Below are positions 8,410 through 61,476 of a DNA stretch of 64,000 nt, piece after piece. The notes under the pieces are model-generated. The model saw only the letters and a program-made list of their open reading frames with translations, did no database searches and was not told the origin of the DNA. The stretch is taken from assembly GCF_001580615.1 (NCBI RefSeq), contig NZ_LHZC01000057.1:310001-374000 (forward strand). Reading direction: 5' to 3'. Made by a program: the position numbers and the translations under genes. This DNA comes from Acetobacter malorum (GTDB lineage: Bacteria; Pseudomonadota; Alphaproteobacteria; Acetobacterales; Acetobacteraceae). Numbering within the stretch: position 1 is the first letter of the stretch; each line of letters starts with the position of its first letter.

Positions 8410-9267
8410 CTACCGGCTGGCCTGCGCTGCTTGCTTTACAGATGCCGGAGCGGATTGCTGGTTATCCTGCGCGGTAAGCACTTCCACAGTCCCGCTGGCC
8501 CCATAGATTTTGCAGAACTGCACCCATGCTTCCGGCAGCAGGCGCGCCAGACGCTCGGCCCACGCTTTCTGGCCGGCTTCATCCGCAATCAGATCCTGCC
8601 GGATTTCAATTTCCAGATGCGGTAGCTGCCGTTTTTCACCGTGCAACGGGATGGTATAGTCGGACGTATCGGTAAGCGCATAAGGCTCGTTGTCCCCCAC
8701 TGTCAGACCATCCTGCCGCAGCAGGTCGAGCATGATGTGGGCCAGACGCGAATCCTGATTATGCAGGATACCGGCCTGCCATGGCCGCCTGAAGCCGCGC
8801 ATTTCCGGCGTAAAGCTGTGCAGCGCCACAACCGCCGTCGGGCGACCGGCTTTCAGACGGGCATCCAGTTCCTGCGTAATACGAGCGTGGTAGGGATGCA
8901 GAATGGTCTCATGCCGGGCAGCAATCTGCTCCGGCGTCAGCCCCTCATTGGCGGGAACGGGCGTGCCATCACTCGTGGTGACAATAGAGGTGGGGTGGTC
9001 GGGGGCACGGTTACAATCAATCACCAGCCGGGAATAAACCTGCTCAATCAGCACCGCAGGCAGCAAAGCGGCTAACTGACGGCCCACGCCATCAATCCCG
9101 ATATCCCAGCCAATGTGGCGCGCGCGCTCTTCCGCACTCACGCCCAGATCCCCCAGCGCGGCCGGCACGGCGCGGCCTGCATGGTCGCTCACCAGCACAA
9201 AGGGGCTGCCCTGATCGGTGCCATAGACGGCAAAACTTGAAGCTGTTTCTGCGGCGCTATCCGTCAT
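8410..9267 (-). CDS. N-formylglutamate amidohydrolase family protein
   Basis: A 285-residue zinc hydrolase of the N-formylglutamate deformylase (HutG-like) family. Family features visible are LVSDHAGRAVPAALGDLGV, HIGWDIGIDGV, SRLVIDCNRAP and VALHSFTPEM, followed by HLEIEIRQDLI near the end. No histidine-degradation genes are nearby, so the substrate may be another N-formyl or N-acyl amino acid. The start at 9267 is chosen because GGAAGG sits about 8 bases upstream; an ATG at 9282 lies before that site. The 246 bases between this gene and aroE (8164-8409) show no further gene. Confidence 0.85.
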   Translation of the reverse strand: MTDSAAETASSFAVYGTDQGSPFVLVSDHAGRAVPAALGDLGVSAEERARHIGWDIGIDGVGRQLAALLPAVLIEQVYSRLVIDCNRAPDHPTSIVTTSDGTPVPANEGLTPEQIAARHETILHPYHARITQELDARLKAGRPTAVVALHSFTPEMRGFRRPWQAGILHNQDSRLAHIMLDLLRQDGLTVGDNEPYALTDTSDYTIPLHGEKRQLPHLEIEIRQDLIADEAGQKAWAERLARLLPEAWVQFCKIYGASGTVEVLTAQDNQQSAPASVKQAAQASR

Positions 9268-51042: not shown

Positions 51043-51076
51043 CCCACACTCCGGCCTTTTGCATGAGGACCCCTCC

Positions 51077-51766
51077 ATGTCCCTGATCGACTCTTTCAAA
51101 CTTGTTCTGGCTCCGCCCCACCCGGAAGCGAAACCGTTCCTGCTGGCCTCTGGTGCCACAACGCTGGTCACCCGTTTTCTGGGCAAGAAGCTCTCCTGCC
51201 CGCTGCTGCGTCATGCGGGCACCGCCAGCGGCCTGTTCTTTGGCTTCTGCCTCTATTTCTTCCGGGACCCGGAACGCACCACCCCGGCCCGCAGCGATGT
51301 TGCTGTTGCCCCGGCTGATGGCCGCGTGGTGTCTGTTGAGAAAATCGCTCCCCCGGCAGAGCTGGGCATGGGCACGGCCCCGGTCTGGCGCATTGCCACG
51401 TTCCTGTCCGTGCTGGACGTGCATATCAACCGTATGCCCGCTGCTGGCACCGTGACGCGCATCGCCTACCACCCCGGCCAGTTCCTGAACGCCAGCCTTG
51501 ATAAGGCGTCTGAACTGAACGAACGTAATGCCCTCAGCCTGACCCTGCCCGATGGCCGGATGATGGCCGTGGTGCAGATTGCCGGTCTGATTGCCCGCCG
51601 CATTGTGTGCAGTGTGTCTGAAGGCATGAAGGTGGAAGCGGGTGAACGCTTCGGCCTGATCCGCTTTGGCTCCCGCACGGACCTGTATCTGCCGCCGGGC
51701 GTGGAACCGCTGGTTTCCGCAGGCCAGACCATGGTGGGTGGTGAAACCGTGATGGCGCGCCTCTGA
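51077..51766 (+). CDS. psd: Phosphatidylserine decarboxylase, short form
   Basis: Makes phosphatidylethanolamine from phosphatidylserine. The 229-residue proenzyme is of the short alphaproteobacterial/archaeal type: PFLLASGATTLVTRFL with a hydrophobic N-terminus, FFRDPERTTPARSDVAVAPADGRV, FLSVLDVHINRMPAAGTV, ENARNE-like LNERNALSL, and RFGSRTDLYLP, in which cleavage at G-S forms the pyruvoyl cofactor. The ATG at 51077 follows GAGGA. pssA starts 4 bases after its stop, so the two consecutive phospholipid steps are co-expressed. Confidence 0.93.
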   Translation: MSLIDSFKLVLAPPHPEAKPFLLASGATTLVTRFLGKKLSCPLLRHAGTASGLFFGFCLYFFRDPERTTPARSDVAVAPADGRVVSVEKIAPPAELGMGTAPVWRIATFLSVLDVHINRMPAAGTVTRIAYHPGQFLNASLDKASELNERNALSLTLPDGRMMAVVQIAGLIARRIVCSVSEGMKVEAGERFGLIRFGSRTDLYLPPGVEPLVSAGQTMVGGETVMARL

Positions 51767-51770
51767 TCCC

Positions 51771-52676
51771 GTGACAGATCCGCAGACACCAGCGCAGCTT
51801 CCGGCTGCCTCGCCATCTCAGGCACCGCTTACCCCCCGAGGGCTGCGCCGCAAACGGCTGCGCAAACGGGTGCGGACCAAAAAAATCCGTGGCCCGTCCT
51901 TCAACCGGCTGATCCCCAACATTCTCACCATGCTGGGGCTTTGCTCGGGCCTGACGGGCATGCGCTTTGCTGTGGAAGGTCGCTTTCAGGCCGCCGGGAT
52001 CGCCCTGCTGCTTTCTGCCTTTATTGACGGGCTGGACGGGCGCATTGCGCGCCTGCTGCGGGGTTCCACACGCTTTGGCGCAGAGTTTGACAGCCTTTCA
52101 GACTTTGTCTGCTTTGGCGTTGCCCCCTCGTTCCTGCTGTTTTTCTGGGCGTTGCAGGATGGCGGTCGCTACGCGTTTCTGCCGTGCCTGATGTTTACGG
52201 TCTGTATGGCCCTGCGTCTGGCGCGTTTTAACGCCACGCTGGATGGTGAGGAAGAAAAGCCGAAATACGCCAGCAACTTCTTCACTGGCGTTCCGGCTCC
52301 CGCCGGGGCCGGGCTGGCGCTGTTCCCACTTTTTCTGGGGCTGGAAGCGCAGAAGCTGGGCATCGACTGGCTCTATCGCCTGACCCGCCTGCCCTGGCTG
52401 CCTGCATTCACACTCATCAGCACAGCGTTTCTGCTGGTGTCCACGCTGCGGGTCTGGTCTTTCAAAAACTTCAAGGTGCCGGCGCAGTATGTACTGCCCG
52501 TCATGCTGGGCACGGGGGCATATACAGCCGTGCTGGTGGCAGACCCCTGGGGCGCACTGGCCGCCGCTGGCGTGATTTATATGATCCTGCTGCCCCTCAG
52601 CCATTTCAGCTTTCTCAAGCTGAAAAAAGCGGCTGAAGATCTTCAGGAAGAGGTTGAGGACGAACCCTCAGCCTGA
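51771..52676 (+). CDS. pssA: CDP-diacylglycerol-serine O-phosphatidyltransferase
   Basis: Makes phosphatidylserine, the substrate of the preceding enzyme. The 301-residue membrane protein has the CDP-alcohol phosphotransferase motif, with the metal-binding Asp residues in DGRIARLLRGSTRFGAEFDS followed by LSD. A basic N-terminal extension (GLRRKRLRKRVRTKKIRG) and about eight helices follow. It starts with GTG. Its last 34 bases overlap the convergent NuoB-like gene. Confidence 0.93.
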   Translation: MTDPQTPAQLPAASPSQAPLTPRGLRRKRLRKRVRTKKIRGPSFNRLIPNILTMLGLCSGLTGMRFAVEGRFQAAGIALLLSAFIDGLDGRIARLLRGSTRFGAEFDSLSDFVCFGVAPSFLLFFWALQDGGRYAFLPCLMFTVCMALRLARFNATLDGEEEKPKYASNFFTGVPAPAGAGLALFPLFLGLEAQKLGIDWLYRLTRLPWLPAFTLISTAFLLVSTLRVWSFKNFKVPAQYVLPVMLGTGAYTAVLVADPWGALAAAGVIYMILLPLSHFSFLKLKKAAEDLQEEVEDEPSA

Positions 52677-53155
52677 GCCCCTCTGGCGGGCGGCACACGC
52701 TGCCCGAACAGAGAACACAATCCGTCCAGCACCTGCTGGGGGGATGGTGGGCAACCGGGAATTTGCAGGTCGATCTTCGCCTTGCGGTCCAGCCCACCCA
52801 GAACGGAATAATTTTCCGGGAAATAGCCGCCATCCATGGCGCATCCCCCCACGCAAATCACCCCTTTGGGTTTCGGCATGGCCTGCCACGCCGCTTCCAG
52901 CACGGGGGCCATGGTGCGGGTGAGTGTACCTGTCACCAGCAACACATCCGCAGAGCGTGGGGACTGCACAAAGCCAAAGCCTGCGCCTTCCATATCATAC
53001 GGGCCAGTTGCCAGAGCTTCCAGTTCCATGCCGCAGCCGCCGCAGCCGCCGGTATCCACATGGAACAGCAGCAGCGGCCAGCGCGGCCCAACGGGTTTCA
53101 GGCGCGGGCCACCCTGCCGAAAAGCGGCATCAAACACTGCGCGGATCAGCCCCAT
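52643..53155 (-). CDS. NuoB/HyfI-like Fe-S subunit of a hydrogenase-4-like complex
   Basis: A 170-residue homologue of the complex I 20-kDa/hydrogenase small subunit family. Four cysteines suited to the N2-type 4Fe-4S cluster are kept: C38 and C41 in GGCGGCGMELEAL, one in CVGGCAMDGGYF, and one in IPGCPPSPQ. VLLVTGTLTRTMAPVL also matches. It is the last gene of a six-gene minus-strand operon, 27 bases after the large-subunit gene. Its 3' end overlaps pssA by 34 bases. Confidence 0.88.
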   Translation of the reverse strand: MGLIRAVFDAAFRQGGPRLKPVGPRWPLLLFHVDTGGCGGCGMELEALATGPYDMEGAGFGFVQSPRSADVLLVTGTLTRTMAPVLEAAWQAMPKPKGVICVGGCAMDGGYFPENYSVLGGLDRKAKIDLQIPGCPPSPQQVLDGLCSLFGQRVPPARGAQAEGSSSTSS

Positions 53156-53182
53156 GACTGCAAACCCTTCCTGTCCTGTTCT

Positions 53183-54682
53183 CTAGCCATCAAGTGCCGC
53201 CGCATTCACCCCGAGGGACTGGCGCACAAGAGCCAGATCCGCCACATCCTGCCCTGCCAGCGTCTCTTCAAAGACCATCAGAGCGGCAGGGGCCGGGTCA
53301 TGCACAAACACCTGCGCTACGCGGCCAGCATGCAGACGCACCCAATAGAGGACGTTACCCCACGGGCCTTCCGTCATCCCCAGCCCTTCCCCATCCTCAA
53401 GAGTAAGGTCCACACGGCCACCGGCAGTCAGCCCCAACCGGGGGCCTGCCTCGCCCAGCATGCGCAGGCTTTCACCAATTTCATCCAGCAGAACAAGAGC
53501 ACGATCTTCCGCCGTGCCGCCGTGTCGGCCAGCGGTCAACCGCCAGAGGGTCTGGTAAACGCGCTGCGTGCGCCGTCCGTCACAATCCTTCCCACTGGCT
53601 CGTGCCACCGGTCCATCCAGCCCCACACGGTCAAGCAAGGTAGCATCCACCTTGCCTACCCCACTTAGACGAACAGAAAGTGCTGGATAGGTGCGCCAGA
53701 GTGTGGCCAGCCCCGGATAAATCTCTTCACCCAGCTTTGCCAGACTGATGCAGAGATCGCCCAGACCTGTCGCCTCGCGCAGACTGGTGCCGCCGGGCAC
53801 ACAATGGTCCATGAGCAAACGAGACCCGATGACCGGCGCGGACTCTGCAAGCAACTGTTCCCGAAACCACGCACAGCGCGACGCCACCACCAGCGCTCCG
53901 GCACCCCGCGCCAGCCCGGCCAGCGTGTGCAGATGCAGCAGAATGCGTTCCAGTTCCAGCAACACCACACGGATCAGCGACGTTTCCGGCCCCACTGCAC
54001 TGCCACACGCGGCTTCTACAGCCTGACAGAAGGCCGCCTGATGCGCCACAGAGCATCCGGCCGCCACACGCCCGCTCAACCGGCAGGCATCTTCCAGACG
54101 GCTATTCCGCCAGCGGGCCGCAAGCCCGCGATGCGCATAGCCGGACACCGTTTCCGCCTGCGTGATGGTCTCGCCCGCCACGGCCATCGCCACATGCAAG
54201 GGCGTTTCCATGCCGCCGGTTGCTGGCCCCGCGCCGGCGTTCACACCGCCAGCCGCCAGCAAGGCGTCAGACGGCTGAAAACTGATCTGCCCTTTATGCC
54301 CCCCGGCAGGGCCGGGGGTGGCGGCCAGCGGTGCAGTCGCGGACCAGACATCATGGTCCACCAGCGGGCGCACATCGACTGCCCACATCCCTTCCGCGCC
54401 ATACAGGTCATACGCCCTGCGCTCATACAGGCTGGAAACCGGGCGTACGGAAGAAAGTGCCGGATACCGTCCATCCTCGAGCGCCAGCGTGGCTGCCAGC
54501 GGCTGCGCGGGGGAGAGCATGAACAGGGCATGCACATCCGTGCCGTCACACCACAGCCCGACAAACGGCAGCGTATCCTTTTCAAGTGCAGCGACCATAT
54601 CGCGCCAGCCGAGTTCATCCAGCCGGAAGCGCCAGGGGGTGTCCGTCTCCTGCCCGGCGCGGATCAGGCTTACAGCATCCAT
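53183..54682 (-). CDS. HyfG/NuoCD-like large subunit without NiFe-ligand cysteines
   Basis: A 499-residue fusion of a NuoC-like N-terminal part (SSLYERRAYDLYGAEGMW near 83-100) and a NuoD/hydrogenase-large-subunit part (ETVSGYAHRGLAAR near 177-190, CSVAHQAAFCQAVE at 210-223). In NiFe enzymes this region reads RxCxxC; here it is R205-V-A-A-G-C210, so the first Cys is Ala. The C-terminal DPCxxC is replaced by D462-P-A-P-A-A. The subunit therefore should not bind nickel and would act, if at all, as a NuoD-like quinone-side subunit. Start ATG overlaps the previous stop (TGATG). Confidence 0.82.
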   Translation of the reverse strand: MDAVSLIRAGQETDTPWRFRLDELGWRDMVAALEKDTLPFVGLWCDGTDVHALFMLSPAQPLAATLALEDGRYPALSSVRPVSSLYERRAYDLYGAEGMWAVDVRPLVDHDVWSATAPLAATPGPAGGHKGQISFQPSDALLAAGGVNAGAGPATGGMETPLHVAMAVAGETITQAETVSGYAHRGLAARWRNSRLEDACRLSGRVAAGCSVAHQAAFCQAVEAACGSAVGPETSLIRVVLLELERILLHLHTLAGLARGAGALVVASRCAWFREQLLAESAPVIGSRLLMDHCVPGGTSLREATGLGDLCISLAKLGEEIYPGLATLWRTYPALSVRLSGVGKVDATLLDRVGLDGPVARASGKDCDGRRTQRVYQTLWRLTAGRHGGTAEDRALVLLDEIGESLRMLGEAGPRLGLTAGGRVDLTLEDGEGLGMTEGPWGNVLYWVRLHAGRVAQVFVHDPAPAALMVFEETLAGQDVADLALVRQSLGVNAAALDG

Positions 54683-55803
54683 CAGAACGCTCCCAGCATC
54701 ATGGCCAGCGGCACCAGAAATCCGGTCAGCACCAGCACGGAACAGGCCACCCGGCCCGCAGCATCTTCAGGCCACAAATCCTGCGTGAACCCTTCCACCG
54801 GCACGGAACGCACCACCGCGCACAAGATCCCGGCCACGGTCAGCACCGTGACACTCCAGGACCAGTCGCTCAGCATGGAGAGCAGCAGCAGACAGCCCAC
54901 AAAAGGCGCACCCGGCGGGAAACAGGCCAGCGCCCGCGCCGCCCATGAGCGCCCGGAACGATTGCCCCCGGCCAGACACCAGCCACACAGGAACAGCAAC
55001 GCCGCCACATCGGCGCCTGCCCCAACCGCCATCAGCGCCAGAGCGGACGGAAAAGTGCGGAACAGGCGCAGCCCCTCATCAGAACGACCAGCACAGGCCG
55101 TCAGCCAGACCGAGGCCAGACCTGCCGCGACCAGAGCCGTCTCAAACGCCTCACCGCCATGCACTCGCAGCCGCATGGACAGCAGCAGAGCGGCCCCGGC
55201 AAATGGCAGGAACAGGTAGGTGTCGTTTTCCTCACGCCATGACTGACCAAACGGCGTGAGCCCCGCGAGCATAACCAGACCGCACGCCATCATCAGCCCC
55301 GCAGGCGCTGAGCCTGAGGGCAGCAGCAGGCCAGACAGCACCAGAAAAATCCCCACAGACCCGGTGCGCACCAGCGCCCATCCGGCCCGCGCCTGCCCGG
55401 CGGGGCGGCTGAACACAAACACGCCGTAAGCCAGTGCGGCTTCCAGAATACCAAGCCCGATAATCGGGTCTGGCGCGACGCAGGCCAGCCCCGTCAGTGC
55501 GGTCGAAATGTGTGGCAGTCCGCGCAACAGGCGGTCCTGCAAGGTGCCATTTTCCATCACCGTCAGCAGCAGGCCAAACGCCAGCATCACACGGCCTGCG
55601 CGCTGGACCGGGTCATCATCCCAGCCCTCCGCAGCAGCACTTGTGGCGGGGAACAGGAACACGGCCACAGCCAGCGCACAGCCAGCCCCGGCCATCCAGA
55701 TGGCAATCTCGCGGCTGCGCGGTGTGGGCGCGGCCATGACAATGGCAGCCCCCAGCAAAGGCCATGCAAAGGCCAGAGCAGCCAGAAAAACAGGAACGGT
55801 CAT
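54682..55803 (-). CDS. HyfF/NuoN-like membrane subunit, short
   Basis: A 373-residue, almost wholly hydrophobic protein with about ten helices, in the position of HyfF. It is shorter than usual antiporter-like subunits (around 480-520). ILEAALAYGVFVF and MLAGLTPFGQSWREENDTYLF are the parts that best recall the family. The usual Lys and Glu residues within helices are hard to find. It overlaps the HyfE-like stop by 4 bases (ATGA). Confidence 0.6.
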   Translation of the reverse strand: MTVPVFLAALAFAWPLLGAAIVMAAPTPRSREIAIWMAGAGCALAVAVFLFPATSAAAEGWDDDPVQRAGRVMLAFGLLLTVMENGTLQDRLLRGLPHISTALTGLACVAPDPIIGLGILEAALAYGVFVFSRPAGQARAGWALVRTGSVGIFLVLSGLLLPSGSAPAGLMMACGLVMLAGLTPFGQSWREENDTYLFLPFAGAALLLSMRLRVHGGEAFETALVAAGLASVWLTACAGRSDEGLRLFRTFPSALALMAVGAGADVAALLFLCGWCLAGGNRSGRSWAARALACFPPGAPFVGCLLLLSMLSDWSWSVTVLTVAGILCAVVRSVPVEGFTQDLWPEDAAGRVACSVLVLTGFLVPLAMMLGAF

Positions 55804-57014
55804 GCGTCCCTCCCGCGCTCGGTCAGATAGCCTCTCAACCAGACATCCCGCGCAATCATTTCCGGCGTGCGCGGCACAGGGTCGGCTTCTTCCGGGCCAA
55901 ACGGCTCGGGCTGGTCCGTCGCGCTGGAAGCCTCAGTATCCGACGTATGTTCAGGCGCTTTGTCAGAGGCTTCGGCAGCAGAAACCGCCGCCGGATCCAT
56001 TCCAGCCTTACGGTCTTCCGCGTCGTCTTCAGAGAGAGCGTCTTCAGAGGGGTCTGTTTTCAGCACGCCGCTTTCGGTGCTTTCCGTTTCTGTCGGTTTA
56101 GCAGCGTCATTACTGGCGTCCGGGACGTCATTCTGTTTCACCGTTTCAACATCATCAGAGGCAACCGTTCCTGCATACGAAGCCCTTTTGTCCTGCGGCT
56201 CGCTCGTCTCGGCTGGCGGCTGATCGACGTCTGCCTTTGCGTCTCCATCGGAAGGTACGGCTTTCTTTGTCGCCTTATCTGGCCGGGGAAGAGGCTCTTC
56301 GTCCTCAGCCGCTGCCTCGGCTTCTGTCCAGATGCGCGGGGCCACCACGGCTTCCGGCCCCAGCCCTCGCGGTTCCGGGCCAGTCGGCTCCACATCGCCC
56401 AGTTCAAACCCTCCGGATCGGGCTGAAGGGCGATCAGCACCCGCCCCGCTCTGCGCCGGTGCCACCGCCACCCGCAGCATGACGCGATGCACGCACATGC
56501 CACCCAGCAGAGCCACCACGCAGCCCGCCAGCGCTGTAACGCCCACTACCATGACCTGATTTTCAATCACGCCGGAGAGCATGACGCCATCCACACAGGC
56601 CAGCAGGCCAGCCCATTGCCAGACCATCGCCTGACGACAGGTTACGGCCACCAGCCCGGCAAGGGCTACGCACAATCCGGCAGGCAAATAGGCTGCTCCG
56701 GCGTGGCCCGGCGCTTCCCCCATAGCCGCAGGCGTGCCCGTGGCGAGTTGCAGAATGACCATCAGCCCCAGTGCCAGAAACGGCACCATCGGGCCGGTGC
56801 GTTCTCGTGCGCCATCATCCTGATACCGGCTGACAAACCAGACCGGCAGCACAGAAAACAGCACCACACAGACCGCGCCAAATTCCTGCAGGGGAGCCCG
56901 CGCATCCACCAGCATGGCCACCGCCGTGACCACGCCCAGCGCGGGCAGAAAGCCAATGCCTCGGGCCACAACACACAGCGCCAGCAGCGGCGCTAAAATG
57001 ACAGCAAGCGTCAT
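55800..57014 (-). CDS. HyfE-like membrane subunit with acidic C-terminal tail
   Basis: A 404-residue protein. Residues 1-183 have about six helices and resemble HyfE (NuoK-related); VWQWAGLLACVDGVMLSG corresponds to the family's conserved ENG region but the Glu-Asn is changed. From about 184 to 404 it is hydrophilic and acidic (Glu, Asp, Ser, Ala, Pro), with no sign of a fold, ending in a short conserved-looking PRTPEMIARDVWLRGYLTER. The tail probably reaches into the cytosol. Start and stop both overlap neighbours as ATGA. Confidence 0.62.
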   Translation of the reverse strand: MTLAVILAPLLALCVVARGIGFLPALGVVTAVAMLVDARAPLQEFGAVCVVLFSVLPVWFVSRYQDDGARERTGPMVPFLALGLMVILQLATGTPAAMGEAPGHAGAAYLPAGLCVALAGLVAVTCRQAMVWQWAGLLACVDGVMLSGVIENQVMVVGVTALAGCVVALLGGMCVHRVMLRVAVAPAQSGAGADRPSARSGGFELGDVEPTGPEPRGLGPEAVVAPRIWTEAEAAAEDEEPLPRPDKATKKAVPSDGDAKADVDQPPAETSEPQDKRASYAGTVASDDVETVKQNDVPDASNDAAKPTETESTESGVLKTDPSEDALSEDDAEDRKAGMDPAAVSAAEASDKAPEHTSDTEASSATDQPEPFGPEEADPVPRTPEMIARDVWLRGYLTERGRDA

Positions 57015-58021
57015 GGTGTTGTGTTCCCCTCATCACTCCACGCTGAGTCCTGCTCGTCCTGCGCGGAGGCCGTTTTGTCCTGTCCCACAGCAGCGGACTG
57101 GCCCGCATACGCGACCTGCCAGGCCAGCAGCCCCAGCAGGAACACCGCAGCCAGACGCACACGCGCCCGGCGCGGGAAGGTCAGCACCATCAGCTGCGTG
57201 CCAGCCAGCAGAAGGGCCGCAATCGCCAGCTTCGCCACCCAGAACGCGCCTCCTGCAAGACATTGCGCAAGCCAGGGCTCCACGCCGCTTTCACCCGGCA
57301 GAGCAAGGCTGCTGGCCCACGCCACATCCCCGGCCAGTGTAATCCAGACCAGTTGCACGCAATCGGTGGCCAGCATCCACAAGGCACGATCAGCCCCGGA
57401 AAGCTGGCACGGCAGTTCCGCCCCGGCCTGCCGCCCTTTCCAGGCCGTAACCAGAAAGAGGGCGACGCCCATCAGCACGAACGGTGCGCCATCCCCTACC
57501 GGAGAAAGCTGGCGCAGATGCGCAAGAAAGGCGGAAAAATCCTGACCACCTGCCATGACCAGCACCGGAACCAGCGCAGGCAAAAGCAGGCTATCTGCAA
57601 GCAGTGCCGCATACCCCGCCAGAGTGGTTGTGCCGCCCTGCACTACCAGCGGCAGACCCAGCAGAAGCGATGCGCCGACCAGTGCTGAACACAGCAGGAA
57701 AAAGCCCGGTGCCGGAAAACCTGCCGGAACCAGCGTGAAAACTGGTGTCATGCACGCAGCAAAAACGGCCAGAATCAACGCACCCCGGCAGGCCAGACTG
57801 CTCAGCCCATCCCCCCTCTGGCGCAACCCCGGCCTGCGGAACTGATGATGAATATCCTGCCAGCGCCCACCAGCCAGAAAACGATGCTCGCCCGTAAGGC
57901 GGCCCGCCAGACGATTGACCCAGCCACTAAACCAAGGGGCTGCCAGAACCATCAGAACAGTTTGCAGGGCCAGAGCCAGCAGGGCGGCAAAAGACCAGCC
58001 CCATGTAAGATCATGCGTCAT
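57011..58021 (-). CDS. HyfC/NuoH-like membrane subunit
   Basis: A 336-residue membrane protein in the position of HyfC. WFSGWVNRLAGRLTGEHRFL near the N-terminus and GGRWQDIHHQFRRPGL match the loop before the first NuoH helix pair. LSGADRALWMLATDCVQLVWI matches the end of the HyfC signature, but the preceding acidic stretch that lies near the quinone site in HyfC/NuoH is missing. The C-terminus adds a hydrophilic tail. It overlaps genes on both sides by ATGA. Confidence 0.66.
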   Translation of the reverse strand: MTHDLTWGWSFAALLALALQTVLMVLAAPWFSGWVNRLAGRLTGEHRFLAGGRWQDIHHQFRRPGLRQRGDGLSSLACRGALILAVFAACMTPVFTLVPAGFPAPGFFLLCSALVGASLLLGLPLVVQGGTTTLAGYAALLADSLLLPALVPVLVMAGGQDFSAFLAHLRQLSPVGDGAPFVLMGVALFLVTAWKGRQAGAELPCQLSGADRALWMLATDCVQLVWITLAGDVAWASSLALPGESGVEPWLAQCLAGGAFWVAKLAIAALLLAGTQLMVLTFPRRARVRLAAVFLLGLLAWQVAYAGQSAAVGQDKTASAQDEQDSAWSDEGNTTP

Positions 58022-59823
58022 TTTGCAGCAAACAGCCCCAGCAGCAGTCCGGCCCCCAGAAAGAGCAGGATGAGAACCATGCCCTGCGCCTCACACCATG
58101 CCACGGTTCTGAACAGCACAGCCTGAAGATAGCGCGCCCCGGCGCTCGTCTTTTCCACCACAGGCCAGTCGGTTGGCTTCTGCTCCGCAGCCCCCAGCAG
58201 AACGCCAAAAGCGGTCCAGACGGCAGGCATGGCGGGCTCGGAAATTGGAGCGGGGAGTACCTCGTCATCCTGCTGAACCACAGGCGCACCGTCTCGCCAT
58301 GCGGCGGCACCGGGCACTGCCGGACGCAGTGGGAACACGCCGAATGCCCGGCCTAGCAATCCGGCTCCCACCACACAAACCGCCAGCGCAAGCACGGAGA
58401 ACACAGGCGTCAGCGTGATATCAGACCCGGCAAATTGCACCCGCGCCAGCGTCTTCCAGGCAAAATCACGCGGTGTATCTCCTGCAAACAGATGGTCCAC
58501 CAACGCCAGCCAGCCACCGGGCAGTAAAGTAATGAGTGCCGCACCGCCTGCGCAGATCCATGCTGGCAGCAGAAGCACACTGCTGAGAGACGGGGCATCG
58601 CCCCCTGTCAGGGCAGCCTGTGGCCCAGCACCCCCAACAACAGGCTGTTGCTGCACAAAGGTCGCGAACCCCACCCGCAACAGACCGATCATCCCCAACG
58701 CCATGACGCAGGCCGCCCCGACCAGAACCAGTAAAAGGCACAAAGCCTGCGCAGGGTGCGTATGAGCGGCGGCCACTTCGCCCGCGTTCAGCAGGCACCA
58801 GAAAACAGAAAAGCCCCCCAGCGGCGGCACAGCGGAGAGCAGCAAAAGGCTGCCTCCCAGCGCAAGCCGGCTACCACGGGCCTGCGCTACAGCACTGTTT
58901 GGCGTAAACAGCCCACCATCCTGACGTGAGAGCCAGAGGGCTGCCAGCAACGCCAGAAACGGCGCGCCCGTTGCCAGAAGTGTTGCGGTGCGGAAAAACT
59001 CTCCGCCTTTTACGGGGGCAGCCAGAGCGAGGGTCAGCATGACCACCAGCCCGCCATAGCCAGCACTCGCCACGCCCGAAAGGATGCCACATGCCGCTGG
59101 ACTGCGGACCGCCTGCACAGCACCCCAGAGCGCCACGGCCCCACCGCTAACCATCAGCAAGCCCTGCTGCACGGGCGGCAGAACACCCACTTCCGCCAGC
59201 AAGCGCCCAAGCAGAAACAGGCCAATGCCTGCAGGCAACACAGCCTCCGGCCCTTTTTGGGAAGAAACCGCCCAGCCCAGCAACAGCACCATCAGGCACA
59301 AGGCGGGCGGGGAAAGCGGGCTGTCTGCGGGAATACAGGCCGGGATCACAGCAAAAGGCAGACACACACCTTGCCGCCCACGGTCGGCCAGCAGCACCAG
59401 CGCGGTGCCGGCAAGAAGTCCGAAAACCAAGGGAGAAAGCGCTAAAAACGCCAGACCGGTGAGCGCGCAAGCCAGACCGCGCTGCCCCACGCCCATCAGT
59501 CCGCCGGTAAAGGCCAGCAGCACCAGCATGGGCAAAGCCGGTCCATCCATGCCGAACACCGGGAACCAGCTTACCCCGCCCTCCAGCCTGCACACCGCGC
59601 CGACCAGCGCCAGCAGGCCCAGGCAGCCCCAGACCCCGGCCAGAATTTCAGAACGCCAGGGGGCGCACCGTCGCAACAGGCGCTCGGGCATCACAGCCAG
59701 AACCCCCGCCACCACAAACAGCACGAACAAACTGCAAAGAACAAAAGAGGTGAAAATGGAACTCTGGCTCCAGACGTGATGTAAAGACGGGCGGATAACA
59801 CCATGAGCGCGGTTCTGTGGCAA
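58018..59823 (-). CDS. HyfB/NuoL-like membrane subunit
   Basis: A hydrophobic protein of up to 601 residues with about 14 helices. LLLLSAVPPLGGFSVFWCLL and DGPALPMLVLLAFTGGLMG match the NuoL/M/N-HyfB family. The helix that normally carries the conserved Glu reads LSPLVFGLLAGTALVLL, and the lysine-containing helix is not recognisable. The start is uncertain: the full frame begins with TTG at 59823, and a hydrophobic first helix follows at about residue 22, ahead of the first internal Met at 45. First gene of the complex operon; the methyltransferase gene ends 42 bases upstream. Confidence 0.68.
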   Translation of the reverse strand: MPQNRAHGVIRPSLHHVWSQSSIFTSFVLCSLFVLFVVAGVLAVMPERLLRRCAPWRSEILAGVWGCLGLLALVGAVCRLEGGVSWFPVFGMDGPALPMLVLLAFTGGLMGVGQRGLACALTGLAFLALSPLVFGLLAGTALVLLADRGRQGVCLPFAVIPACIPADSPLSPPALCLMVLLLGWAVSSQKGPEAVLPAGIGLFLLGRLLAEVGVLPPVQQGLLMVSGGAVALWGAVQAVRSPAACGILSGVASAGYGGLVVMLTLALAAPVKGGEFFRTATLLATGAPFLALLAALWLSRQDGGLFTPNSAVAQARGSRLALGGSLLLLSAVPPLGGFSVFWCLLNAGEVAAAHTHPAQALCLLLVLVGAACVMALGMIGLLRVGFATFVQQQPVVGGAGPQAALTGGDAPSLSSVLLLPAWICAGGAALITLLPGGWLALVDHLFAGDTPRDFAWKTLARVQFAGSDITLTPVFSVLALAVCVVGAGLLGRAFGVFPLRPAVPGAAAWRDGAPVVQQDDEVLPAPISEPAMPAVWTAFGVLLGAAEQKPTDWPVVEKTSAGARYLQAVLFRTVAWCEAQGMVLILLFLGAGLLLGLFAAK

Positions 59824-59865: not shown

Positions 59866-60666
59866 TTATGTCTCCGGCATACGGGCCGCACTCTCCGGCG
59901 GCGCGCCGTTCTTTTGGGTTGCCGTCTCCTGCGCCGGGCAGAGCATTTTTTTAAACCATGTCCGGGGCGAGCGGACGGGGAGCGGCGTGGCGGAAAATAC
60001 ATCCTTCACGGCTTCCACCAGCATCAGGCTCCCCAACCCCGGTGAGAGAACTTTTCCGGCAATATCGGACCGTCGCCCCCGGCCCATGCTGGTGCAGGCC
60101 TGCCGGGCGGGCAGAAACAAAGCCTCATCCCGCCGCTCCGGCAGCAGCATGGCATGGCCCAGCAGGGTGCGCAGCCCTGTGCGGGAGCAGGCGACATCCT
60201 GCGCAAAAGGCGTATTTTTCTGCCGCAACCGCCCGCCCAGTCTGTTGGGCAGAATCATCAATAGCCGTCCGTCATCTTTCAGCACCCGGCCTGCCGCCCG
60301 CAACAGAGGCACCATCTGGTCCTCCTCCGCGCAGGCATGCACCAGTATGATCCGGTCAAATGCGTCTTCGTCAAACGGCAGGGCATACGGGTCGACCACG
60401 CATTCCCGGTCAGACGCTGAGAACGGCATGAGGGATTGCGCGCTGGCACTGTCAGGCCGGTGGTTTGGCGTCCGGGCGGAAATGCAAAGCGCGCCGCGCC
60501 CGCGCCATGCCCCCAGATACGGCCCGGCATAGCCCAGCCCCAGCACACGCTGGCCGCGCAGATCAGGCCAGAACCATTGCAGCCGCTCACGCAGCAAAGC
60601 CGCGCAGGTCTGGCCCTCATGGGTCTGATAAAAGGCGTCTGCCGAGGGAGGAATGGCCTTATGCAT
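59866..60666 (-). CDS. Class I SAM-dependent methyltransferase (type 11-like)
   Basis: A 266-residue protein. RVLGLGYAGPYLGAW is the SAM loop, DPYALPFDEDAFDRIILVHA motif II-III, and RVLKDDGRLLMILPN the following strand. This protein is commonly the divergent neighbour of gloB in alphaproteobacteria and its substrate is not known. The ATG at 60666 is chosen; the frame extends to 60762, over the gloB start. The complex I-like operon lies 42 bases downstream and could be co-transcribed. Confidence 0.85.
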   Translation of the reverse strand: MHKAIPPSADAFYQTHEGQTCAALLRERLQWFWPDLRGQRVLGLGYAGPYLGAWRGRGALCISARTPNHRPDSASAQSLMPFSASDRECVVDPYALPFDEDAFDRIILVHACAEEDQMVPLLRAAGRVLKDDGRLLMILPNRLGGRLRQKNTPFAQDVACSRTGLRTLLGHAMLLPERRDEALFLPARQACTSMGRGRRSDIAGKVLSPGLGSLMLVEAVKDVFSATPLPVRSPRTWFKKMLCPAQETATQKNGAPPESAARMPET

Positions 60667-60750
60667 AGCGGATGTGTACCATGATATCCGCTCCCGGCGC
60701 CATGACTGCGCACGCGTCCCCTCAAAGTTTCCACTCTGGAGAATTGCCCC

Positions 60751-61476
60751 ATGTCTCTTCAAACCCGCGCCATCCCGGTTTTGTCAGACAATTACAGCTG
60801 GCTTCTGCGAGACACGGAAACCGGCTGCACCGCTATTGTGGACCCCGGAGAAGCCGCCCCCATTCAGGCCGTGCTGGATGAGACCGGTGGGCGACTGGAC
60901 CTGATCCTACTCACCCACCACCACGCCGACCACGTTGGCGGCACGGATGCCCTGCGCACCCGCTACAACGCCCGCGTGGCAGGCCCTGCTTCCGAAGCCG
61001 CCCGCATGCCTGCGCTGGATATTGCACTGCACGATAATGAGACGATTGCCGTTGGCCAGTCTCAGGGCCGTGTCATTGCCGTGCCGGGCCACACACGCGG
61101 CCATATCAGCTATTATTTTGCGGAACCGCCGACCCTGTTCTGTGGGGACACCCTGTTCAGTCTGGGCTGTGGCCGCCTGTTTGAAGGCACGGCCGAGCAG
61201 CTTTTTGAAAGCCTGAAACGCTTTGCCGATCTGCCGGATGAAACGCTTGTTTGCTGCGGGCATGAATATACCGAAGGCAACAGCGCCTTCGCCCTCTACG
61301 CCGAACCAGACAACGCCGCCCTGAAAACCCGGGTGGCGGAGGTCAAACACCTGCGGGCAGAAGGCCGCGCAACCGTGCCTTCAACGCTTGGCGAAGAACG
61401 CGCCACAAACCCGTTCCTGCGCGCGCCTGATGCGCCGACCCTAGCCAGATTACGGCGTGAGAAGGATACGTTTTAA
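60751..61476 (+). CDS. gloB: Hydroxyacylglutathione hydrolase (glyoxalase II)
   Basis: Hydrolyses S-lactoylglutathione to lactate and glutathione in methylglyoxal detoxification. In the 241-residue metallo-beta-lactamase-fold protein, the two-metal site is in THHHADHVGG, with further ligands in VPGHTRGHISYYF and FCGDTLFSLGCGRLFEG. CGHEYTEGN and the C-terminal helical domain with LGEERATNPFLR, the glutathione-binding part, mark it as GloB. Confidence 0.95.
   Translation: MSLQTRAIPVLSDNYSWLLRDTETGCTAIVDPGEAAPIQAVLDETGGRLDLILLTHHHADHVGGTDALRTRYNARVAGPASEAARMPALDIALHDNETIAVGQSQGRVIAVPGHTRGHISYYFAEPPTLFCGDTLFSLGCGRLFEGTAEQLFESLKRFADLPDETLVCCGHEYTEGNSAFALYAEPDNAALKTRVAEVKHLRAEGRATVPSTLGEERATNPFLRAPDAPTLARLRREKDTF

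Follow-up and report, generated by a model that had tools for sequence, protein, structure and literature searches.

The window, a stretch of 64,000 nucleotides from an Acetobacter genome, carries on its minus strand an operon of six intact genes in the order B-C-E-F-G-I (52643-59823; ORF listing), where an earlier note on this DNA had placed a hydrogenase-4/complex I-like operon. As that note had also reported, most neighbouring genes overlap, by 4, 4, 4 and 1 bases from B to G, and a 27-base gap separates G from I. The genes, and the features within them to which we refer, are as follows.

58018..59823 (-): B, HyfB-like antiporter subunit, 601 aa
57011..58021 (-): C, HyfC/NuoH-like membrane anchor, 336 aa, acidic E-channel loop mostly gone
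55800..57014 (-): E, HyfE-like membrane protein of 404 aa that ends in a long acidic tail
55860..56459 (-): E residues 186-385, acidic tail of low hydrophobicity (49 Asp/Glu and 18 Lys/Arg per 200)
54682..55803 (-): F, HyfF-like antiporter subunit of reduced length (373 aa)
55441..55443 (-): F Glu121, at the site of the canonical TM5 Glu and retained in Acetobacter rows
55267..55269 (-): F Leu179, where canonical relatives have the TM7 Lys (Lys229 of L059)
53183..54682 (-): G, HyfG/EhrL-like large subunit, 499 aa, without the NiFe ligands but with other core residues conserved
54041..54070 (-): G residues 205-214, RVAAGCSVAH, the remnant of the first NiFe cysteine motif
52643..53155 (-): I, HyfI/EhrS/NuoB-like small subunit, 170 aa
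53033..53044 (-): I Cys38 and Cys41, first and second Fe-S ligands
52841..52843 (-): I Cys105, third Fe-S ligand
52751..52753 (-): I Cys135, fourth Fe-S ligand

The start codon of B is TTG and is uncertain. The tail of E, about 200 residues long, is present in the A. cerevisiae group (E of 386-408 aa) and absent from the other Acetobacter loci, L038, L039, L040 and L043, where the whole of E is only 196-241 aa. Downstream, psd and pssA (51059-52676) lie in convergent orientation to the operon; both have homologs in all nine Acetobacter loci compared, and a pssA-like gene was seen by eye downstream in L051. A methyltransferase gene just upstream (59866-60762) was considered as a seventh member and left out; it is less constrained and, by eye, is located elsewhere in L051. 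No gene for an electron donor was seen beside the operon, in agreement with the earlier note: no NADH module was seen in the operon or its flanks in the window, the operon has no formate dehydrogenase or ferredoxin-type subunit, and the flanking ORFs of 11 loci, read by eye, show no recurring soluble partner gene. A separate, ordinary complex I (NuoB and NuoD relatives, NuoF) is encoded on contig C14.

The claim that the operon is under selection is borne out by the Nei-Gojobori dN/dS of the window against the nine Acetobacter loci, which does not exceed 0.35 in any of the six (B 0.05-0.29, C 0.06-0.22, E 0.16-0.35 with one pair saturated, F 0.01-0.13, G 0.05-0.17, I 0-0.16). Control genes gave 0.07-0.10 (alaS, four loci), 0.02-0.12 (psd), 0.01-0.11 (pssA) and 0.05-0.14 (gloB), and the constraint on F is comparable to that on the housekeeping genes alaS, psd and pssA. 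With 75-100% identity across Acetobacter, F is the most conserved membrane subunit within the genus, but among 200 family genomes window F matches only three of four same-genus genomes and two marginally; it is constrained inside the genus and very different between genera. Window B is 96% identical to that of A. cerevisiae L033 and 94% to that of A. malorum L034. The operon genes are not decaying, and the ORFs are intact in the nine Acetobacter loci; frameshifts in close relatives are what the earlier note would have taken as decay. In one draft genome, of A. persici (L037, 6867-8623), the B ORF stops at 8417 and the match continues to 8623, through either a frameshift or an assembly error.

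The soluble core

The Hyf relationships proposed earlier for all six genes hold directly for G and I, both of which match complex I/NiFe models in Pfam and NCBIfam. In the PDB, the nearest relative of G is Mbh subunit alpha (6cfw_L, E 2.1e-20), followed by the formate hydrogenlyase (FHL) large subunit and then by NuoD proteins, and the nearest relative of I is FHL subunit 7. The NiFe site is lost, as the earlier note had read it: the first motif of G, RVAAGCSVAH, retains one of two cysteines and the last 100 residues are cysteine-free, so that three of the four NiFe cysteine positions are gone. By eye, these cysteines are absent from the aligned rows of all inspected family relatives of G, including those of canonical loci (those whose membrane arm keeps the expected proton-route residues, as opposed to the gutted loci that have lost them). 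The earlier note had seen no hydrogenase maturation gene nearby, and HypD is absent from the whole genome. The complex therefore has neither the two NiFe-binding CxxC motifs and Hyp maturation genes of a group 4 NiFe hydrogenase nor the NADH module and CC-type NuoB of complex I; I has CxxC, and its four Fe-S cysteines (38, 41, 105 and 135), recognised earlier, are present and form one [4Fe-4S] cluster-binding motif. An ordinary Nuo operon, to which the earlier note had allowed that these proteins might be closer, is thus not the nearest relative.

A group-4-like large subunit without NiFe-binding cysteines is what sets Ehr (energy-converting, or Ech, hydrogenase-related) complexes apart in the accessible text of two reports (PMC6349859, PMC10284858), and window G is such a subunit, accompanied by a small subunit with four cluster cysteines. 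The suggestion that the complex is undescribed does not stand, because NiFe-less six-subunit Ehr complexes with the same subunit set and cysteine pattern are already a described family, as far as the available portions of the literature go (PMC6349859, PMC10284858, PMC7894505, PMC10432482). The core of G is conserved equally in gutted and canonical rows, Arg205, Glu243, Arg288 and Arg370 each being present in 18 of 18 gutted representatives, and the chemistry of G and I is therefore probably the same as in Ehr, minus the coupling. Apart from one lineage, one truncated row and one Nuo row, the cluster cysteines of I persist in 37-40 of 40 aligned rows. Window G is without the complex I quinone-site residues at the position of Nqo4 Tyr87 and at one loop histidine.

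The membrane arm

None of B, C, E and F matches any Pfam or NCBIfam model, and this part of the earlier assignment therefore stands on other grounds. The gene order is identical to that of canonical loci, whose F, C and B are recognised by the Pfam models Proton_antipo_M or NADHdh. Iterated profiles started from the window reach canonical rows for B (31 loci in all) and likewise for C (38 loci), whereas those from E and F reach 10 loci each, all Acetobacter; a gutted relative of B in L048 matches Proton_antipo_M at 3.7e-7. When profiles were compared, 22 gutted F rows matched canonical F (probability 80, E 1.4e-5 over 184 columns), but the ten Acetobacter F rows alone gave an unsupported match (probability 4.7), and searching PDB sequences with gutted F and with window C gave no match. 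An AlphaFold model of window F (pLDDT 72.9, pTM 0.76) has an antiporter-like fold missed by the sequence searches, and the 50 PDB matches listed for it are complex I, photosynthetic NDH or Mrp proteins (TM-score by query 0.59-0.73); the model of window B is weak (pLDDT 62.9), with listed matches of the same kind. The Hyf-like names of these four subunits are thus best taken as putative, resting on gene order, profile links (B, C) and predicted folds (F, B) rather than on a direct family match. With that reading, the operon combines HyfB-, C-, E- and F-type membrane subunits with a large and a small subunit as in Ehr, homology being based on iterated profiles for B and C, on fold and on the profile shared with other gutted rows for F, and on gene position only for E.

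The most unusual feature of the operon, missed by the earlier note, is that this membrane arm is gutted but conserved. Scored by pattern, the expected F and B motifs are present in the canonical loci (L057, L058, L059, L060, L074 and L076), with the exception of one TM12 motif of L060, and none of the other loci scored carries them; window B is without the TM5 Glu, TM7 Lys/His and TM12 His/Lys of its canonical relatives. We then compared residues by alignment, using six canonical rows and 22 gutted rows for F and C (19 gutted rows for B), with the proviso that alignments between such different proteins are uncertain and that for several positions other than Lys229 a charged residue lies nearby. 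In F, Lys229 is present in 6/6 canonical and 0/22 gutted rows, and none of these 22 has a basic residue within four columns of that position; the same counts of presence hold for Lys348 (including that of L060), His344 and Glu403. Glu136 is kept in 5/22 gutted rows, the window among them, and His236 in 2/22. All canonical rows of B have Glu191, Lys273, His280, His287, Lys304, Glu360, His398, Lys402 and Glu457, and none of the 19 gutted rows has any of them. In C, the gutted rows have no Glu138 (5/6 canonical) and no Glu211 or Glu222 (each 6/6 canonical), and they rarely have Glu197 (3/22), Glu217 (4/22), Asp204 (4/22) or Glu146 (2/22; Acetobacter, including the window, has Asp there), all of these being 6/6 in canonical rows; Arg116 is 6/6 against 9/22. 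The C positions align with residues of HycD whose mutation cut H2 output by 98-99%, according to the accessible part of one study (PMC9474812).

The idea of an ion-moving complex is therefore unlikely to apply, since B and F lack the residues of the known proton route and C lacks much of its part. Because the charge-moving residues of its antiporter-like subunits appear to be lost in both B and F, we file the window complex as a variant derived from Ehr rather than as a typical member.

Distribution and history in the Acetobacteraceae

Of 200 sampled family genomes, 196 have a match to window G; the weak matches are probably NuoD, and at a cut-off of our own (E 1e-20 or better) 166 remain. Canonical F, with that of L059 as query, matches 113 of the 200 at 1e-40, a count that includes best matches only 36-42% identical and genomes not all of which were opened. 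An Ehr-type G accompanied by a canonical F match is found in 111 genomes, and one without such an F in 55, from 30 of which loci were opened, chosen from the top of the match lists and by hand rather than at random. At the level of the class, 12 of 96 genomes match canonical F at 1e-80, all of them outside Acetobacteraceae, and the GYGTK motif is kept in six of six canonical F sequences fetched from outside the family; the canonical state is therefore ancestral.

A quick tree of 51 G rows, made without bootstrap, places 28 gutted rows, including Acetobacter, in one group (SH-aLRT 99). Five other gutted rows (L055, L056, L071, L073 and L021) have no resolved position near the root, and L020 and L072 lie near or inside the canonical group, the gutted label of L072 being unsafe in that it has G and I only. 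Given this scatter, the proton route has likely been lost more than once. In five genomes (G147, G151, G113, G099 and G062) a gutted or partly gutted copy coexists with a second Ehr elsewhere that has canonical F; the changes in G113 are Lys to Thr and Lys to His, and in G062 the other copy is without E or F.

Several loci depart from the usual layout. Only G and I were found in L072 (G102), and only B, C and G in L073 (G062). In L026 (G139), G and I adjoin an Nfu/NifU gene (Pfam Nfu_N, NifU), with no membrane subunit gene seen within 4.5 kb. In L055 (7524-9359) one 611-aa ORF, apparently an E-F fusion, stands where E and F would be, and in genus g32 (L068, L087) I lies about 4 kb from G instead of adjacent to it.

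NuoF was sought in 20 genomes, chosen partly for having a single G match, and was present in nine and absent from 11. An Ehr-type G (E 5.5e-36 to 6.5e-46) is present in every one of the 11 NuoF-less genomes, none of which matches canonical F. Four of them were inspected across the whole operon and carry B, C, E and F in order, and three more were checked for G and I only. A role as a helper of complex I, which we had considered, is weakened by the presence of G in 11 of 11 such genomes.

Interpretation and comparison with known systems

The operon descends from the NiFe-less Ehr complexes common in Acetobacteraceae, and in the clade of the window the membrane arm has lost the proton-carrying residues of its relatives, with G, I and the gene order under purifying selection. 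Our preferred explanation, to which we give a probability of about 0.45, is a naturally decoupled Ehr complex, that is, a membrane-anchored redox enzyme with one cluster that no longer pumps. Single electrons from a putative soluble donor would enter through the cluster in I and pass to an acceptor in the former NiFe/quinone cavity of G, no proton movement accompanying the transfer; the membrane subunits would serve as an anchor and perhaps give the acceptor access. Quinone is a first guess for the acceptor, and only a guess because the complex I quinone-site residues are not kept in window G. What counts against decoupling is that F keeps its TM5 Glu in Acetobacter, that Acetobacter C has Asp at the place of Glu146, and that Arg116 of C is partly kept. 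Somewhat more tentatively, this may be the first known machine of the complex I superfamily without the whole coupling apparatus (E-channel and proton routes) and with its redox core under strong selection, a pump turned non-pumping enzyme or redox sensor that some lineages have kept after losing complex I.

Alternatively, one could envision a non-catalytic redox sensor or scaffold, whose cluster reports redox state, or which organises other membrane proteins, without turnover. We consider this unlikely, if deserving of some weight. It agrees with the single cluster, the loss of coupling and the lack of partner genes seen, and with the two loci that have only G and I (L072, and L026 with its neighbouring Nfu gene). 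It also agrees with genus g100 (two species; L071 and L078), in which I has lost three of its four Fe-S cysteines and the ORFs of the operon stay open; electron transfer cannot be the role in that lineage, which counts against a universal redox role. However, dN/dS between L071 and L078 is 0.51 for I as compared to 0.14 for G, a weaker constraint on the small subunit, as if the role of I were fading there, and a sensor or scaffold would not lead one to expect a G core as conserved in gutted as in canonical rows.

It is improbable that ion movement persists by an unrecognised route through F, using Glu121 and many other charged residues. The high identity and low dN/dS of F across Acetobacter, and the position of Glu121 at the canonical TM5 Glu site, would suit such a route, but the glutamate recurs in only 5 of the 22 gutted rows, and so no shared new route is visible. 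The loss of a single residue is not decisive, the TM7 Lys being Leu208 in the FHL subunit HycC (available text of PMC9474812); here, however, the known-route residues are gone from B, C and F alike. A relic in slow decay has an even fainter claim: strong divergence of B, E and F between genera, the few genomes that window F finds, the partial operons (L072, L073, L026) and the B ORF of the L037 draft that ends before its match could all be read in this way, but not the low dN/dS and intact ORFs in nine Acetobacter loci or the retention of G by all 11 small NuoF-less genomes. An ordinary complex I or active hydrogenase we reject as having next to no likelihood, for although G and I are members of the superfamily, G has lost three of the four NiFe cysteines, HypD is absent, G is nearest to Mbh and FHL subunits and not to NuoD, and a separate Nuo with NuoF is present.

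If the complex is indeed a decoupled Ehr, it bears on how electron transfer is coupled to protons in complex I, which is still debated: a relative with the redox core and without the coupling parts is a natural control, showing which parts are lost together in evolution once pumping is given up, and allowing one to ask what the core does alone. According to the accessible portions of two papers (PMC10284858, PMC10432482), the function of Ehr is not established; a variant from aerobic bacteria that are easy to grow would open it to testing. We found no prior report on the operon in Acetobacteraceae in the open-access literature, and the part of a Gluconobacter knock-out collection available to us (PMC12041372) does not mention hydrogenase or NADH genes.

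Among known systems, complex I (NuoB, C/D, H, K, L, M, N) belongs to the same superfamily, and the F model is predicted to fold like NuoN/NuoM/NuoL; the window operon differs in having no NADH module, CxxC instead of CC in the small subunit, and a lost proton route. With formate hydrogenlyase/hydrogenase-4 (HycB-G, HyfA-I; E. coli 7z0s) it shares homologs of HycD, HycC, HycE and HycG, but not the NiFe site, formate dehydrogenase or ferredoxin-type subunits, and the E-channel is mostly lost. The nearest solved relative of G is MbhL of the Pyrococcus MBH (6cfw_L), and MBS is also related; both are ion-translocating in the accessible text of PMC9474812, whereas the route is apparently lost in the window complex.

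The Ehr operon of Geobacter is EhrABCDLS. It has a large and a small subunit, HyfB/C/E/F-like membrane subunits, missing NiFe ligands and small-subunit Fe-S cysteines that are kept, as in the window. EhrA, EhrC, EhrL and EhrS are named in the available part of one report (PMC7894505), and Ehr is thought, in that of another (PMC6349859), to couple redox chemistry to charge movement through its antiporter-like subunits. The NiFe-less Ehr family itself is thus already known; what is unusual here is a membrane arm whose antiporter-like subunits are stripped of their proton-route residues, in a family where many relatives have ordinary antiporter subunits within the operon.
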